From Caenispirillum bisanense (GTDB taxonomy: Bacteria; Pseudomonadota; Alphaproteobacteria; Rhodospirillales; UBA2165): a stretch of DNA of 33,102 nucleotides. The DNA lies in the NCBI GenBank assembly GCA_945877815.1, contig CAMDWJ010000040.1, positions 1 through 33,102 of the forward strand. Direction: 5' to 3'. The translations under genes were made by a program, and so were the position numbers. Below the pieces are notes generated by a model. That model did not search any database, had not been told where the DNA came from, and saw only the letters and a list, made by a program, of their open reading frames with translations. This document shows positions 537 through 31,814 of this stretch, piece after piece; position 1 is the first letter of the stretch; each line of letters opens with the position of its first letter.

Positions 537-548
537 ATGTTATAAAGT
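537..548. promoter_or_regulatory. Candidate Zur operator 2
   Basis: ATGTTATAAAGT matches the same core at 10 of 12 positions. Its TTATAA centre lies exactly 20 bp from that of operator 1, about two helical turns, so two Zur dimers could sit on the same face of the DNA and cover both divergent promoters. Confidence 0.65.
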
Positions 549-578
549 AACGTAATTCTGTTGTCCACCGGAGGAACC

Positions 579-25252: not shown

Positions 25253-25337
25253 GCGGGCGTGGTGGAACTGGTAGACACGCCAGATTTAGGTTCTGGTGGC
25301 TTAGGCCGTGGGGGTTCGAGTCCCTTCGCCCGCACCA
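25253..25337 (+). tRNA. tRNA-Leu (anticodon UAG)
   Basis: It is 85 nt long including the encoded CCA. The acceptor stem is GCGGGCG/CGCCCGC. The anticodon stem is CCAGA/TCTGG around loop TTTAGGT, which places anticodon TAG at 25287-25289. A long variable arm and GGTTCGAGTCC T-arm support the type II leucine class. Confidence 0.96.
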
Positions 25338-25382
25338 GGAATTACAGCGGCGATACCGCTCATCCAAGGTAGAGATAAACAG

Positions 25383-26900
25383 ATGCAGGTCACGGAAGTC
25401 ACTAATGAGGGCTTGAAGCGCGGCTTCAAGATTGTCGTCCCCGCCGACGATATCGAGCGCAGGCTCACCAGCCGGCTTTCCGAGATGGCTCAAACTGCTC
25501 GCTTGCCAGGGTTCCGCCCGGGCAAGGTGCCGGCAAGCCTGTTGCGCAAGCAGTATGGCAATGCGCTACGTGGCGAAATCTTGGAAACGACGGTCAACGA
25601 AGCAACCCAGCAGGCGATCACCGAGAAGGATCTTCGTCCGGTCGGTCAGCCCAAGGTCGAAATCCAGAGCTTCGAAGAGGGCAAGGATCTCGAATATTCG
25701 GTTGAGCTTGAGCTATTTCCGCAGATCGATCTCGGCAATCTGTCAGATATCCAACTTGAGCGGCTGCGCATTCAACCCGACGAGTCGCAGGTCGATCGTT
25801 TTCTTCAGCAGATGGCCGATGGCCAGAAGGAATCGACGCCGATCGCGGAAAATCGTCCGGCCCAAACCGGCGACGTCGCAGTGATCGATTTCGTCGGCCG
25901 AGTCGGCGGCGAGGAGTTCCCCGGCGGCAAGGCGGATGGCTATCACCTGGAATTGGGTTCGGGCTCTTTCGTGCCGGGCTTCGAGGAGCAACTCGTCGGC
26001 AAGTCGGTCGGCGATGAAACCATCGTGAAGGTGACCTTCCCTGAGAACTACGCCGAGACCCTGGCCGGCAAGGATGCCGAATTCACCGTCAAGGTGAACG
26101 AGATTCGCAGTGCGGTCCCGGTTGAGATCAATGACGAACTCGCCAAGAAAATGGGCGCCGAGAATCTCGAGGAAATTAAGAAGACGCTGCGCGGCAGCCA
26201 AGAAAAAGAATTGGCCGGCCATGCGCGTCAGCGCCTGAAGCGCGATCTGCTCGACGTGCTCGACAAGACGCACAAATTTGAACTGCCGGGCGGCATGGTC
26301 GGTGCCGAGTTCGATGCCATCTGGCAGCAGATCGAACATGCGCGCGAGCATCATCCCGATCAGCTCGATGCCGAGGACAAGGGCAAAAGCGACGACGAGT
26401 TGAAGGCGCAGTATCGCGAAATCGCCGAACGGCGCGTTCGTTTGGGCTTGCTGCTCGCTGAGATCGCGCGCGTCAACGAGATCAAGGTGACCCCCGAAGA
26501 AATCAGCCGTGCCATTGTCCAGGAAGCGCAGAAATATCGCGGCCAGGAAAAGCAGGTTCTCGATTATTATCGCGGCAACCCGCAAGCCGCCGCAGCCCTT
26601 CAATCGCCGATCCTCGAAGACAAGGTGGTCGATTTCATCCTCGAAATCGCCCAGCTGTCCGACAAGGAAGTGACGATGGAACAGTTGATGGAGCTGGAAA
26701 AGGCTGAACGCCCCGACGACCTCAACCGCGATTTTAGCGGCCATGCCGGTGGCGCGCACGATCATGACCACGATCATGACCACGATCATGACCACGGCCA
26801 TGACCACGGCCACAATCACGATCATGACCACGGGCACGATCATGGTGCCGAGTCGGCCGAGACGACTAAGGCCAAGGGCGAGACGAAGAAGATAAAGTAG
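25383..26900 (+). CDS. tig: Trigger factor with His/Asp-rich C-terminal tail
   Basis: This is the ribosome-associated chaperone and peptidyl-prolyl isomerase, 505 aa. The N-terminal domain carries the ribosome-docking signature GFRPGKVP (43-50). The FKBP-type domain spans about 160-245 (GDVAVIDFVGRV to FTVKVNEI), and the helical C-terminal arms run to about 445. After this standard body comes a tail in which residues 459-488 contain 15 His alternating with Asp, Gly or Asn, followed by a short charged end. Trigger factors are usually 430-450 aa, so the tail is an addition. It is encoded by 12-bp tandem repeats. The start is ATG 25383. The gene stands before clpP and clpX as in many proteobacteria. 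Confidence 0.95.
   Translation: MQVTEVTNEGLKRGFKIVVPADDIERRLTSRLSEMAQTARLPGFRPGKVPASLLRKQYGNALRGEILETTVNEATQQAITEKDLRPVGQPKVEIQSFEEGKDLEYSVELELFPQIDLGNLSDIQLERLRIQPDESQVDRFLQQMADGQKESTPIAENRPAQTGDVAVIDFVGRVGGEEFPGGKADGYHLELGSGSFVPGFEEQLVGKSVGDETIVKVTFPENYAETLAGKDAEFTVKVNEIRSAVPVEINDELAKKMGAENLEEIKKTLRGSQEKELAGHARQRLKRDLLDVLDKTHKFELPGGMVGAEFDAIWQQIEHAREHHPDQLDAEDKGKSDDELKAQYREIAERRVRLGLLLAEIARVNEIKVTPEEISRAIVQEAQKYRGQEKQVLDYYRGNPQAAAALQSPILEDKVVDFILEIAQLSDKEVTMEQLMELEKAERPDDLNRDFSGHAGGAHDHDHDHDHDHDHGHDHGHNHDHDHGHDHGAESAETTKAKGETKKIK
26761..26832 (+). repeat. 12-bp tandem repeat encoding the trigger factor His tail
   Basis: Six consecutive 12-base units occur in frame: ATCATGACCACG three times exactly (26761-26796), GCCATGACCACG, GCCACAATCACG, then ATCATGACCACG again. 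Each unit adds four residues of the His-Asp type, so slippage would lengthen or shorten the tail without a frameshift. Confidence 0.9.
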
Positions 26901-27049: not shown

Positions 27050-27709
27050 ATGAGAGACCGCGACCCGATCGAAATTTACGCCAATACCCTGGTGCCTATG
27101 GTGGTGGAAACCACCAACCGAGGCGAACGGGCTTATGACATCTATTCGCGCCTCTTGAAGGAGCGGATCATTTTCGTGACCGGCCCGATCGAGGATTACG
27201 GCGCGAGCCTGATTTGCGCCCAGCTGCTGTTCCTCGAATCGGAAAATCCGAAGAAGGATATCTCATTTTATATCAATTCGCCGGGCGGGGTCGTGACCTC
27301 TGGCCTCGCGATCTACGATACGATGCAATATATCCGCCCCGATGTGTCGACCGTATGCGTCGGCCAGGCCTCTTCGATGGGGTCATTGCTGTTGGCGGCG
27401 GGACAAAAAGGCAAGCGGTATGCCCTGCCAAATGCGCGAATCATGATCCATCAGCCCTCCGGCGGTGCCCAGGGACAGGCGACCGACATCGAAATCCAGG
27501 CCCGCGAGATCCTGGCGCTGCGGCATCGTTTGAACCAAATCTATGTTCACCATACCGGCAAGGAATTGAAGGACATCGAGACCTCGATGGAGCGCGATCG
27601 CTTCATGACACCGCAGGAAGCCGCCGAATTTGGGCTTATTGACGAAGTAGTAACTCAACGTCCGGTATCTTCGGGTAGTGACGATGACAAGCGTGGGAGC
27701 AAGGATTGA
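27050..27709 (+). CDS. clpP: ATP-dependent Clp protease proteolytic subunit ClpP
   Basis: This is the serine peptidase of the Clp proteases, 219 aa, forming tetradecameric chambers with ClpX or ClpA. The catalytic triad is Ser109 (GQASSMGS), His134 (MIHQPSGG) and Asp183 (MERDRF). [18 protein letters not shown] is the conserved handle-side strand region. The N-terminal loop ([20 protein letters not shown]) resembles the alphaproteobacterial form without a long propeptide. The length is normal. The ribosome site is weak. It stands between tig and clpX, separated from them by about 150 and 124 bases. Confidence 0.96.
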
Positions 27710-27718
27710 GGCAGGAGT

Positions 27719-27756
27719 CAGTAGGTCTACTGAGAGAGGTCCGATCTTTTAAAGAT
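27719..27756. promoter_or_regulatory. Two adjacent palindromes in the clpP-clpX spacer
   Basis: CAGTAGGTCTACTG (27719-27732) has 6-bp arms around a 2-base centre, and ATCTTTTAAAGAT (27744-27756) has 6-bp arms around one base. The short centres fit protein-binding sites better than RNA hairpins. They lie where a separate clpX promoter would be. No known operator matches. Confidence 0.3.
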
Positions 27757-27833
27757 TGTACTGACGCCCGACCGGTGCTTACAATTATTTCAAATATGTT
27801 GCGATATGGCCGGATAGGCGTACTGGAGGGCCA

Positions 27834-29099
27834 ATGAATAAGACCAGCGGCGGCGATTCTAAGAACACGCTCTACTGCTCTTTCTGCGGTAAGAGCCAGC
27901 ATGAGGTTCGCAAGCTCATCGCCGGTCCGACCGTTTTCATATGCGATGAATGCGTCGAACTCTGCATGGATATCATCCGTGAGGAGAATAAGACCCATAT
28001 CGTCAAATCGGGAGATGGCGTTCCGACACCTCGTGAAATTTGCACCGTTCTCGATGATTACGTGATCGGGCAGGAACATGCGAAACGCGTTCTTTCCGTC
28101 GCGGTGCACAATCATTATAAGCGGCTCTCGCACAGCACGAAAAACAACGATGTCGAATTGGCGAAATCCAATATCCTGCTCATCGGTCCGACGGGCTGTG
28201 GCAAGACGTTGCTCGCACAGACCCTGGCGCGCATACTTGATGTGCCCTTCACGATGGCCGACGCGACGACCCTGACCGAAGCTGGTTATGTCGGCGAGGA
28301 TGTCGAAAACATTATTCTGAAGTTGCTACAGGCGGCCGACTATAATGTTGAGCGCGCCCAACGTGGCATCGTCTATATCGACGAAGTCGACAAAATCAGC
28401 CGCAAATCGGACAACCCGTCAATCACACGCGACGTGTCGGGCGAAGGCGTGCAGCAGGCGCTGCTGAAGATCATGGAAGGCACCGTTGCCTCCGTGCCGC
28501 CGCAGGGCGGGCGCAAGCATCCGCAGCAGGAATTCCTGCAGGTCGACACCACGAACATCTTGTTTATCTGCGGCGGTGCTTTTTCGGGCCTGCAGAAGAT
28601 CATCTCGTCGCGCGGTTCGGGTTCGTCGATCGGTTTCGGAGCCGAAGTGCGCGGTCCGGACGAACGTGGTGTGGGTGAAGTACTGCGTGAAGTCGAGCCC
28701 GAGGATCTGCTTAAGTTCGGTTTGATTCCAGAGTTTGTCGGCCGTTTACCGGTTATCGCGACCTTGGAAGATCTCAACAAGGATGCTTTGATCAAAATCC
28801 TGACGCAGCCGAAGAACGCGCTGGTGAAACAGTATCAGCGTCTGTTCGAGATGGAAGACGTCAAGCTGACTATTCGCGAGAATGCCTTGGGCGCAATCGC
28901 GGAGAAGGCGGTCGAACGTAAGACCGGCGCGCGCGGCCTACGCTCTATCATGGAAGACATTCTGCTCGAAACCATGTTCGAACTGCCCGATCTCGAGAAT
29001 GTCGAGGAAGTGGTCATCAATCGTGAAGTGGCGCAGGAAGGGGCACGTCCGCTCTATATCTACGCCGAGCGGAGCGGTCAGATGGATTCGTCCGCATAG
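27834..29099 (+). CDS. clpX: ATP-dependent Clp protease ATPase subunit ClpX
   Basis: This AAA+ unfoldase, 421 aa, feeds substrates to ClpP. The N-terminal zinc-binding domain has Cys15, Cys18, Cys37 and Cys40 (YCSFCGKS, then [10 protein letters not shown]). Walker A is GPTGCGKT (118-125), and Walker B follows as [11 protein letters not shown] with Asp183 and Glu184. The [20 protein letters not shown] pore-side region, the ClpP-contacting IGF-type loop (SSIGFGAEV) and the sensor 2 segment [11 protein letters not shown] are all present. A GGAGGG ribosome site precedes ATG 27834. The length matches the family. A strong terminator follows. Confidence 0.97.
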
Positions 29100-29405
29100 T
29101 GGACGCTGGCCCATATAGATCAGCTCGCGTGGCCGGACGCTTTCGGCCGTGCGATTCAAATTTCTCAGCTTATAAGATCGTGCGCGGAGTCAATTCCGCG
29201 CACAATTTTTTTGTGGGTATTTATGCCGCTCGCCGGAATTTCAGCAGGTGTCGGTACCCAAATATCGCACCGATACCGTCCGGTAATTACCAGCCCTTGA
29301 TCTTGGCGGAATCGGATATAACTGTTGTGGAGAAAGTCGGGGGCCGTCGCCGGTTGCTTGAGAAGAAACGGCACAAGCCCGCCGCAATTATAGGAGAAGC
29401 CGAAG
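29100..29405. other. clpX-lon intergenic region
   Basis: These 306 bases hold the clpX terminator at 29180-29213 and the leader of lon. A TATAAC near 29317-29322 could be a -10 element, but the nearest TTGATC (29297-29302) is only 14 bases upstream, so I do not call a promoter. A 104-codon open frame crosses the terminator and has no family likeness or ribosome site; I treat it as chance. Confidence 0.5.
29180..29213 (+). terminator. Rho-independent terminator of clpX
   Basis: GTGCGCGGA and TCCGCGCAC form a perfect 9-bp stem with a 6-base loop (GTCAAT), followed by AA and seven T. It lies 80 bases after the clpX stop and separates clpX from lon. Confidence 0.92.
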
Positions 29406-31814
29406 TTGGATAGTAAGTCTAGCCACGCTTACCCGGTGCTGCCGCTTCGCGACATCGTGGTCTTTCCGCATATGATCGTTCCGCTCTTCGTCGGGCGTGA
29501 AAAATCTGTGCGCGCGCTTGAAGACGTCATGAAAGACGACAAGCAAATTCTGCTCGTGGCGCAGAAAAATGCGGCCGAGGACGATCCCTCCGCCGAGGAT
29601 ATTTATACGGTCGGCACCGTATCGACCGTACTTCAGCTTCTGAAGTTGCCGGATGGCACCGTGAAGGTGCTGGTCGAAGGCGGTTCGCGCGCGCGTGTCG
29701 TCAATTTTGTCGAGAACGAGAGTTTCTTCGAAGTTGAAGCCGAACCGCTGCCCGAGACGGACACGGAATCGGAAGATCTCGAAGCCTTATCGCGCTCGGT
29801 AGTTTCCCAGTTTGAGCAGTACATCAAGCTCAACAAGAAAATCCCGCCCGAAGCGCTCGTCTCGGTCAATCAGATCGACGAATACGGCAAACTCGCAGAC
29901 ACAATCGCGTCGCACCTCGCGCTCAAGATTTCGGAGAAGCAGGAGCTTCTCGAAATCGAGTCCATTTCCAAGCGCATGGAGCGGATCATCTCCTTCATGG
30001 AAGGTGAGATCGGCGTGTTGCAGGTCGAGAAAAAAATCCGTAGCCGCGTGAAGCGCCAAATGGAGAAGACCCAGCGCGAGTATTATCTGAATGAGCAGCT
30101 CAAGGCCATTCAGAAGGAGCTGGGCGAGACCGAGGAAGGCAAGGACGAAGTCGCCGAGATCGAGGAGCGCATCAAGAAGACGAAGCTCTCCAAGGAAGCC
30201 CGCGACAAGGCTTACGCCGAGGTCAAGAAACTCCGCACCATGAGCCCGATGTCCGCCGAGGCGACTGTCGTGCGCAACTATCTGGATTGGATGCTGTCCA
30301 TTCCGTGGAAGAAGCGCAGCAAGGTGTCGACCGACATCAAGAAAGCTGAGGCGATCCTCGATGAGGATCATTATGGCTTGGAGAAGGTGAAGGAACGTAT
30401 TGTCGAGTATCTCGCGGTACAGACGCGCACCAAAAAGATTAAAGGCCCGATCCTGTGCCTCGTCGGCCCTCCGGGCGTCGGTAAGACGTCGCTCGGCAAG
30501 TCGATCGCACGGGCCACGGGCCGGCAGTTCTTGCGTATGTCGCTGGGTGGTGTGCGTGACGAAGCAGAAATCCGCGGCCATCGCCGGACCTATATCGGCT
30601 CCATGCCCGGTAAGATCATCCAGGGCATGAAGAAGGCGAAATCGTCGAACCCGCTCATGCTGTTGGATGAGATCGACAAGATGGGCGCCGATTGGCGAGG
30701 TGACCCGGCGTCAGCACTGCTCGAAGTGTTGGACCCGGAACAGAACGATACGTTCCAGGATCACTATCTCGAGGTGGATTACGATCTGTCGGACGTCTTG
30801 TTTGTCACCACGGCCAACTCGCTGCGTATTCCCGGCCCGCTGATGGATCGAATGGAGATCATTCGTATCCAAGGCTATACCGAGGATGAGAAGGTCGAGA
30901 TCGCGCGCCGTCATTTGATTGAAAAACAGATTGAGGCTCATGGCCTCAAGGCAACGGAATGGTCGATCTCGGATGGCGCGTTGCGCGATCTGGTCCGCTA
31001 TTACACGCGCGAGGCAGGCGTTCGTAGCCTTGAACGCGAGATCGCCGGCCTGACGCGGAAGGCGATCAAGGAGATTCTGACATCGACTGTGAAAAAGGTC
31101 GCCGTCACGAGCAAGAATCTCGAGAAGTATGCGGGCGTTCACAAGTTCCGCTACGGCGAAACCGAGTCCGAGGACATCGTCGGCATCGTCAATGGTCTTG
31201 CTTGGACCGAAGTCGGTGGTGAGATCCTGACGATCGAAGCAGTCATGCTGCCGGGTAAGGGTAAGATGACCATTACCGGCAAGCTCGGCGACGTGATGCA
31301 GGAATCGATTCAGGCGGCGCGTTCGTTCGTGCAGTCCAAGAGCATCAACTTCGGAATCAAGCCGACCCTGTTCGATCGCAAGGACATCCATGTCCATGTG
31401 CCCGAAGGGGCGACCCCGAAGGACGGTCCGTCCGCCGGCGTTGCGATGGTGACTTCGATCGTATCGGTTCTGACGGGCATTCCGGTGCGCCGCGACGTTG
31501 CGATGACCGGCGAGGTTACGCTGCGCGGTCGTGTGCTGCCCATCGGCGGCTTGAAGGAAAAGCTTCTGGCGGCGTTGCGCGGCGGTCTCACCACAGTGCT
31601 GATCCCGAAGGATAACGAGAAGGACTTGGCGGATATCCCCGACAACGTGAAGAAGAAGTTGGAGATCGTTCCGGTAAGCATGGTCGAGGAAGTTCTCGCC
31701 CGTGCTCTGTCCAAACCGCTCGTGGCGATCGAATGGGACGAAGAGGAAGAAGAGAAGAAGCTGCGCCGCAAGCCGAGCGCGGAAGACGACGATCACAGTG
31801 GTGTGGTGCATTAA
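29406..31814 (+). CDS. lon: ATP-dependent protease Lon
   Basis: This is an AAA+ serine protease of 802 aa that degrades misfolded and regulatory proteins. The N-terminal LON substrate domain covers about 1-200 (YPVLPLRDIVVFPHMIVPLF), followed by a coiled segment. Walker A is GPPGVGKT at 354-361, and LMLLDEIDKMG is Walker B. The catalytic dyad is Ser676 (DGPSAGVAM) and Lys719 (GGLKEKLL), 43 residues apart as in E. coli Lon. The start is a TTG at 29406 with an AGGAG site about 10 bases upstream; no ATG exists nearby in frame that keeps the conserved N-terminus. A strong terminator follows. Confidence 0.97.
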   Translation: MDSKSSHAYPVLPLRDIVVFPHMIVPLFVGREKSVRALEDVMKDDKQILLVAQKNAAEDDPSAEDIYTVGTVSTVLQLLKLPDGTVKVLVEGGSRARVVNFVENESFFEVEAEPLPETDTESEDLEALSRSVVSQFEQYIKLNKKIPPEALVSVNQIDEYGKLADTIASHLALKISEKQELLEIESISKRMERIISFMEGEIGVLQVEKKIRSRVKRQMEKTQREYYLNEQLKAIQKELGETEEGKDEVAEIEERIKKTKLSKEARDKAYAEVKKLRTMSPMSAEATVVRNYLDWMLSIPWKKRSKVSTDIKKAEAILDEDHYGLEKVKERIVEYLAVQTRTKKIKGPILCLVGPPGVGKTSLGKSIARATGRQFLRMSLGGVRDEAEIRGHRRTYIGSMPGKIIQGMKKAKSSNPLMLLDEIDKMGADWRGDPASALLEVLDPEQNDTFQDHYLEVDYDLSDVLFVTTANSLRIPGPLMDRMEIIRIQGYTEDEKVEIARRHLIEKQIEAHGLKATEWSISDGALRDLVRYYTREAGVRSLEREIAGLTRKAIKEILTSTVKKVAVTSKNLEKYAGVHKFRYGETESEDIVGIVNGLAWTEVGGEILTIEAVMLPGKGKMTITGKLGDVMQESIQAARSFVQSKSINFGIKPTLFDRKDIHVHVPEGATPKDGPSAGVAMVTSIVSVLTGIPVRRDVAMTGEVTLRGRVLPIGGLKEKLLAALRGGLTTVLIPKDNEKDLADIPDNVKKKLEIVPVSMVEEVLARALSKPLVAIEWDEEEEEKKLRRKPSAEDDDHSGVVH

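Follow-up and report, generated by a model that had tools for sequence, protein, structure and literature searches.

A trigger factor with a histidine-rich, probably metal-binding C-terminal extension, and the recurrence of such extensions among bacteria

Introduction

Trigger factor (TF) is an abundant chaperone that is partly bound to the ribosome, and the alternation of His with Asp, together with Gly or Cys, is the look of metal-buffering tails. In the available excerpt of a study on the TF of Thermus thermophilus (PMC8614707), this protein binds one Zn, which favours its oligomerisation, whereas the TFs of E. coli and T. maritima bound none. SlyD of Helicobacter pylori is called nickel-binding in an excerpt of another article (PMC7840056), and a survey of prokaryotic low-complexity regions, likewise available in part (PMC6821194), describes cobalt- and nickel-binding proteins as enriched for His and also for Asp in such regions. 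On His-tailed TFs themselves, no paper was found in the open-licence literature, among the matches listed. Here we describe such a TF from Caenispirillum bisanense, encoded in a stretch of 33,102 nucleotides (hereafter designated the window), and its comparison with TFs of relatives and of more distant bacteria.

Results

A complete trigger factor followed by a histidine array

The product of tig is a trigger factor and is not filed as SlyD, as judged from its sequence. It matched the TIGR00115 profile over its full length (positions 1–410 of 410, residues 11–420 of the protein) with 427.2 bits, above the curated NCBIfam cut-off of 180.2; the N-terminal, FKBP and C-terminal TF domains follow one another in this order in both the Pfam matches and the predicted model; and E. 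coli TF (1w26) matched residues 1–437 in a PDB sequence search. The tig product is also the sole match to Trigger_C in the 3.98-Mb genome. By contrast with this full-length match, the model NF008008 (PRK10737), which we take to be that of SlyD, matched the tail only, residues 452–492 aligning with profile positions 149–184 of 196 at 20.8 bits against a cut-off of 174. The features of the gene and its surroundings are as follows.

25383..26900, + strand: tig, trigger factor (TF), 505 aa (TIGR00115 'tig' equivalog; Pfam Trigger_N, FKBP_C, Trigger_C)
25383..25814, + strand: N-terminal domain, Trigger_N, residues 1–144 (Pfam)
25854..26096, + strand: FKBP-type PPIase domain, FKBP_C, residues 158–238 (Pfam)
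26166..26645, + strand: C-terminal chaperone domain, Trigger_C, residues 262–421 (Pfam; core confident in AlphaFold2)
26337..26390, + strand: C-domain loop region, residues about 319–336, starting HAREHHPDQ (alignment; site of His-rich inserts in some other TFs)
26694..26756, + strand: linker LEKAERPDDLNRDFSGHAGGA, residues 438–458 (alignment; largely common to the sister species)
26757..26846, + strand: His-rich array, residues 459–488, 15 His, predicted disordered (sequence, pLDDT)
26757..26796, + strand: exact lag-12 run, CACGATCATGAC three times and then CACG (lag-12 run of 28)
26847..26897, + strand: short Lys-containing end AESAETTKAKGETKKIK (printed sequences)
27050..31814, + strand: clpP, clpX and lon, downstream of tig (NCBIfam matches above cut-off)

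The 15-His tail reported in a preliminary description of the window was confirmed from the sequence: residues 459–488 (26757–26846) read HDHDHDHDHDHDHGHDHGHNHDHDHGHDHG, with His at every second position alternating with Asp, Gly or Asn. In the AlphaFold2 model, the core is confident and pLDDT lies below 50 for residues 444–467 and 469–505; from sequence and model, the protein is a TF whose His-rich C-terminal extension is predicted to be disordered. The extension had also been described as lying beyond the normal length of the family, which is correct with respect to the TF model, since the match to it stops at residue 420, but misleading for this lineage, in which Lys/Ala-rich tails are common. 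A tRNA-Leu gene lies upstream of tig. No promoter was predicted in the surroundings of tig, and a terminator scan gave 4 against 2.6 expected. On the opposite strand of the array, antisense open reading frames mirror the HD repeat.

Duplication history of the array

Tandem Repeats Finder detected in 26757–26832 a 12-bp unit present in 6.3 copies with 84% matches (score 103, the highest among the 12 rows obtained for the window). The (His-Asp)n peptide itself forces a 6-bp periodicity, and synonymous-codon shuffles of the array were therefore used as the null model. The summed lag-12 identity was unremarkable, being reached by 537 of 5000 shuffles, in contrast to the longest exact lag-12 run, which extends over 28 bases (shuffle mean, 10.3) and was reached by only 19 of 20,000. 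Thus, about three units, corresponding to the first 40 bases with exact 12-bp repetition, look recently duplicated, and the others, which make up the degenerate remainder, look older. The near-exact 12-bp units noted earlier are indeed found in the first ~3.3 units, but the term is loose for the rest.

The only other genome of the window's genus in the set of relatives (G001) codes for a TF with nearly the same linker, followed by a His array. The TF cores of the two species are identical at 377 of 440 positions (dN 0.087, dS 0.83; NG86), and of the tail stretches compared, one contains 13 His and the other 16. Of the 22 array codons that could be aligned, 13 are the same in both species, 8 show synonymous differences and 1 a nonsynonymous one; this comparison covers one species pair and is uncertain in alignment inside the repeat. 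These counts suggest purifying selection on the His/Asp/Gly content of the array, and they do no more than suggest it because of that uncertain alignment and the sample of one pair. The tail of the sister species terminates with HDHK and a stop codon; DNA similar to the tail end of the window's TF (AESAETTKAKGETKKIK) was seen by eye behind this stop, in another frame (locus L003). Recent slippage as the full story is rejected, given the excess of synonymous over amino-acid change in the array and the presence of the tail in both members of the genus pair. Growth of the repeat in frame, as initially proposed, agrees with the exact lag-12 run and with the different tail lengths of the two species, but the 8 synonymous differences against 1 nonsynonymous weaken the picture of a freely expanding array, a reading that is thus only half right.

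Sporadic occurrence among relatives and in the class

A TF was present in 53 relatives, and its tail was readable in 52, the TF of G035 being cut by the contig end (L135). His-rich tails were found in 2 of these 52, namely the sister species and G045, which belongs to another family of the same order. Within the window's own family, the tail occurs in 1 of 18, and the other 17 have Lys-rich tails devoid of His; indeed, a Lys/Ala-rich extension is common in the relatives at the very site of the window's His tail. The tail of G045 is built from a 27-bp unit (lag of 9 codons; reached by 0 of 2000 shuffles). Relatives show tails only sporadically (2/52), and tail length differs even between the two species of one genus (13 versus 16 His). 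The preliminary description had held that a tail fixed across distant relatives would speak against recent expansion; we found instead tails that are sporadic and differ by lineage, even though nearly all members of one Sphingomonas genus share a short form, as described below.

An evenly drawn survey of the class comprised 289 genomes, 269 of which gave a TF match. Sixty-nine loci were read, corresponding to 67 new genomes (G051 had already been covered, and G292 was represented twice). Among all loci analyzed, L218 is another with a cut TF, the visible part of which is Lys-rich. A His-rich tail was present in 1 of the 67, G331, which had been picked since its alignment ran into the tail, and His tails are thus rare in the class. 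Both G045 and G331 have Lys-rich sequence behind the His array, so that in these two the array separates the core from a basic tail. Of the 289 genomes, 73 have strict HDHDHD tracts, a pattern that misses some tailed TFs, such as that of G331, whose His tail gave no tract match. That TF is a hot spot for such tracts in the class was unsupported: the window's tract was the only one located in a TF among 149 genomes compared by eye out of the 269 with TF.

A short module retained in one Sphingomonas genus

A different situation was found in the genus that includes the tailed L037/G355 (a Sphingomonas koreensis record), for which all 61 genomes drawn had a TF (L336–L396). A His module, usually of the form GTHxHDHDNHKP, lies directly behind the core in 60 of the 61, G595 being the exception. 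The module region contains Cys in 12 of the 61 (for example, HVHGPDCDHDHDH), and four of the 61 have 11–13 His. His 450, 452 and 454 and Asp 455 are kept in 59–60 of the 61, with both CAC and CAT and both GAC and GAT in use, while pairwise core identity in the genus ranges from 0.69 to 1.0. Columns conserved to this degree amount to 198 of 430 in the core versus 7 of 85 behind the module, where a Lys-rich tail drifts.

The order to which this genus belongs was represented by 69 TFs from 69 of 89 genomes, one of them (L439) cut by the contig. At least three His within 20 residues were found in 12, all of them among the 13 best-matching loci (L406–L418), whereas the other 57 had no His or a single His there; L407 is a close relative without the module. 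Since the His-rich TFs are 12 of the 13 best matches and the other 57 lack the module, it was probably gained near this Sphingomonas genus and then kept, a placement based on the match list rather than a tree. The Cys-containing form of the module, used as a peptide query against plasmids, gave no match. Judging from sequence, the His add-on seems to have been kept by selection in some groups, which hints at a metal-handling role.

Scattered origins and a second site in the C-domain

The distribution was further analyzed with a tree built from 130 alphaproteobacterial TF cores by a quick search in IQ-TREE, with support values of the Shimodaira type only; duplicates (L001, L160, L164 and L222) and broken, cut or partial sequences (L040, L041, L135 and L020) had been left out beforehand. 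The 9 tailed TFs, comprising the two of the window's genus, G045, Parvibaculum, G331, three Sphingomonas and Aestuariivirga, need at least 5 changes, gain and loss counting alike, and the starred branches force 5. Parvibaculum and G331 are nearest each other. The tree set includes TFs from a search biased to tails, in which 1 of the 6 search peptides was HDHDHDHD; this bias affects the number of tails in the set and not their scatter on the tree.

In the same tail-biased search, 77 loci matched the TF core. At least five His within some 20 residues occur in 21 of them, close to the C-terminus in 16 and at internal positions in 5. C-terminal tails occurred in records labelled Actinomycetota, Mycobacterium, Deltaproteobacteria, Trueperaceae, Bacteroidales and Clostridiales. 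In a draw of 149 actinomycetotal genomes (145 with TF), 51 tract rows were obtained and 2 of them lay in TF by eye, in G346 (the seed genome) and in G446, whose TF is 89% identical to that of G346. The best-scoring 29 new loci of the seed genome's class included three with at least five His (5, 6 and 10) and three more with 3 His. Across the phylum, His tails were found in 0 of the best-scoring 30 of 145 TFs; nine further actinomycetotal TFs included one with a His tail, that of G446, which had been picked for its tract. A TF with a His tail was also observed in a Trueperaceae metagenome-assembled genome (MAG; L104), whose phylum also includes Thermus, the genus of the zinc-dependent TF.

A second His-rich site lies inside the C-domain. 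In the AlphaFold2 model, the loop region at 26337–26390 is flanked by helices 303–323 and 337–364, and His-rich inserts in other TFs fall at the end of the former and before the latter (numbering of the window's TF). Such inserts were present in 3 of 53 relatives of the same order (G040, G032 and G053), in 1 of 69 TFs of the Sphingomonas order (L465) and, in the tail-biased set, in a Kordiimonadales genome (L035), L078, L041 and a Gemmatimonadetes MAG (L079); none was found in the 69 loci read from the class or in the 61 Sphingomonas-genus TFs. The loci are the following.

Region equivalent to 26337..26390 of the window: His-rich inserts in L138, L158, L159, L035, L078, L041, L079 and L465

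For the five loop rows, the tree requires 5 changes, and for tails and loop inserts combined it requires 10, with all rows kept; if the 116 unlabelled rows are omitted, each of the two groups requires only 3 changes relative to the other. In a Chloroflexi TF homologue (L107), a further His-rich insert was seen near its residue 161.

Zinc genes, profile likenesses and other His-rich proteins

As stated in the preliminary description, the window also contains His-rich ZnuA- and ZnuC-like proteins: a fragment resembling ZnuA, which has a His-rich loop and runs off the left end of the window, and a ZnuC-like protein with a His-rich C-terminus. All of the Zur-, ZnuA-, ZnuB- and ZnuC-like proteins score below their NCBIfam cut-offs. 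The divergent znuA-like and zur-like genes are separated by one further feature.

539..551, + strand: Zur-box-like palindromic sequence between the divergent znuA-like and zur-like genes (inverted repeat region 520–551; exact pattern match by construction)

The pattern written from this spacer, which may differ from the true Zur box of the organism, matched the window at 6 positions, no excess over the 4.54 expected; none lies between 18169 and the end of the window, hence none near tig, and the region upstream of the gene has no match. Neither was an inverted repeat found in 25320–25400, upstream of tig. Zinc control of tig by way of the neighbouring znu genes is thus unsupported, and because the spacer pattern has no match near the gene, nothing points to such control.

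Besides the weak NF008008 match of the window's tail, the tail of L074 weakly matched parts of nickel/cobalt efflux transporter, UreE and ZnuA models, far below their cut-offs; four other tailed TFs that were scanned gave no such model match. A replacement of SlyD by the tailed TF was considered and found unsupported, SlyD-model matches occurring in 2 of 9 tailed versus 3 of 5 untailed genomes, none above cut-off. Pfam matches elsewhere in the window's genome include a NicO-family (nickel/cobalt) transporter with a His-rich loop (L151:1125-2102; G000 C72), a homologue of the nitrile hydratase alpha-chain with a His-rich N-terminal extension (L154:1820-2560; G000 C28) and an EutA-family protein with a His-rich C-terminal tail (L153:2633-4243; G000 C36).

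Discussion

We regard it as fairly probable that the protein is a normal TF with a flexible, His/Asp-rich and probably metal-binding appendage, which would serve mainly as a cytoplasmic metal buffer or sink. Presumably, short His-Asp coding units were tandemly duplicated behind the C-terminal domain, where a low-complexity extension is common. The resulting tail may have a modest affinity for several divalent ions (Zn, Ni, Co or Cu), by analogy with the tails of SlyD, GroEL1 and HspA, and it would act mainly as a buffer or sink in the cytoplasm because TF is abundant and partly ribosome-bound. Metal-dependent self-association of TF may follow as a secondary effect, if the protein resembles that of T. 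thermophilus. Metal binding is likely, since the model likenesses, the precedents of SlyD, HspA, GroEL1 and T. thermophilus TF and the low-complexity survey all point to it; buffering is its most likely use, and a metal switch is possible. The metal-binding tail proposed in the preliminary description can be upheld only by inference, from the weak match to the end of NF008008 and from a His/Asp pattern that recurs and is retained, and the metal reading, plausible in itself, is strengthened by this recurrence and by the Sphingomonas module.

The array might instead be a low-complexity expansion that is tolerated but serves no selected function, in that the C-termini of TFs would be unconstrained and would readily gain and lose repeats. 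This we consider unlikely. It would explain the sporadic spread (2 of 52 readable relatives), the lengths and units that differ by lineage (for example, the 27-bp unit in G045), the recent-looking 12-bp run in the window's TF, the end of the sister species in another frame and the lack of the module in one Sphingomonas-genus TF (G595) and the close relative L407. It fits poorly, however, with array differences of 8 synonymous to 1 amino-acid, with His and Asp that are near-invariant in 59–60 of 61 TFs next to a Lys-rich tail that drifts, and with His-rich segments at the same two sites in unrelated lineages. The charge or interaction properties of the tail, rather than metal, might also matter, the tail altering contacts with the ribosome, nucleic acid or proteases as the Lys-rich tail of relatives might do. 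Although Lys/Ala-rich tails occupy the same place in relatives and clpP and clpX adjoin tig, what the Sphingomonas genus keeps is His ligands (with Cys in 12 of 61), and its Lys-rich sequence is kept separately behind them, so that we judge such an element very improbable.

Two further proposals retain the metal and assign it another use. In one, metal on the tail or on a His-rich loop would drive TF oligomerisation and raise holdase activity, so that TF responds to metal or metal stress. The available excerpt of PMC8614707 describes Zn binding to T. thermophilus TF at 1:1, with promotion of oligomerisation, and refers to an earlier report of holdase activation; a second His-rich site exists within the C-domain of some TFs, and a His-tailed TF occurs in a Trueperaceae MAG. 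The same excerpt, however, describes T. thermophilus TF as having no typical zinc-binding motif, which implies a different site, and E. coli and T. maritima TF as binding no Zn; moreover, a tail predicted to be disordered may bind metal without changing the core. A switch of this kind is therefore a poor bet in our estimation. The other proposal, which is tentative and rather unlikely, is that bacteria have repeatedly equipped TF with metal-binding modules, as either a C-terminal His/Cys tail or a His-rich C-domain loop insert, which would hold or sense zinc, nickel or cobalt at the ribosome exit during the folding of nascent metalloproteins. Delivery of metal to nascent chains, raised in the preliminary description, is an attractive step but unsupported.

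It is still an open question how cytosolic metalloproteins come to hold the correct metal while they are being made or shortly afterwards. With a conserved metal-ligand module on the chaperone that nascent chains encounter first, the supply of metal would be linked to translation; even if the appendage is a buffer only, as in the reading that we prefer, TF would join the chaperones that carry such tails. One Sphingomonas genus with the module and most of its order without it provide a comparative set for testing.

Comparison with known systems

Among the systems compared, SlyD is an FKBP-type PPIase chaperone with a His-rich C-terminus, and the window's tail weakly matches the end of its model; the window's protein differs in being a full TF with the N- and C-terminal TF domains, has no Cys in its tail and scores far below the cut-off of that model. 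The T. thermophilus protein is itself a TF, and its oligomeric state depends on bound Zn, but, according to the available excerpt (PMC8614707), it has no typical zinc-binding motif and needs all three domains for Zn. Mycobacterial GroEL1 is a chaperonin whose C-terminal tail, DHDHHHGHAH, has been examined as a ligand of Cu(II) (PMC10170517); its fold is unrelated to that of TF, and its tail is shorter than the present one. HspA (GroES) of H. pylori carries a lineage-specific chaperone extension that is said, in an excerpt of PMC7840056, to act like a nickel sequestration domain, whereas it has the GroES fold, is Cys-rich and, in the same excerpt, is said to be absent from non-Helicobacter bacteria. 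The Lys/Ala-rich tails of other alphaproteobacterial TFs are low-complexity extensions at the same place, but they are basic, not His/Asp-rich, and have no metal-ligand pattern. In having a His-rich C-terminal extension that is predicted to be disordered, the window's TF resembles other chaperones (SlyD, HspA and GroEL1), and its appendage would be a variant of that kind carried on TF.
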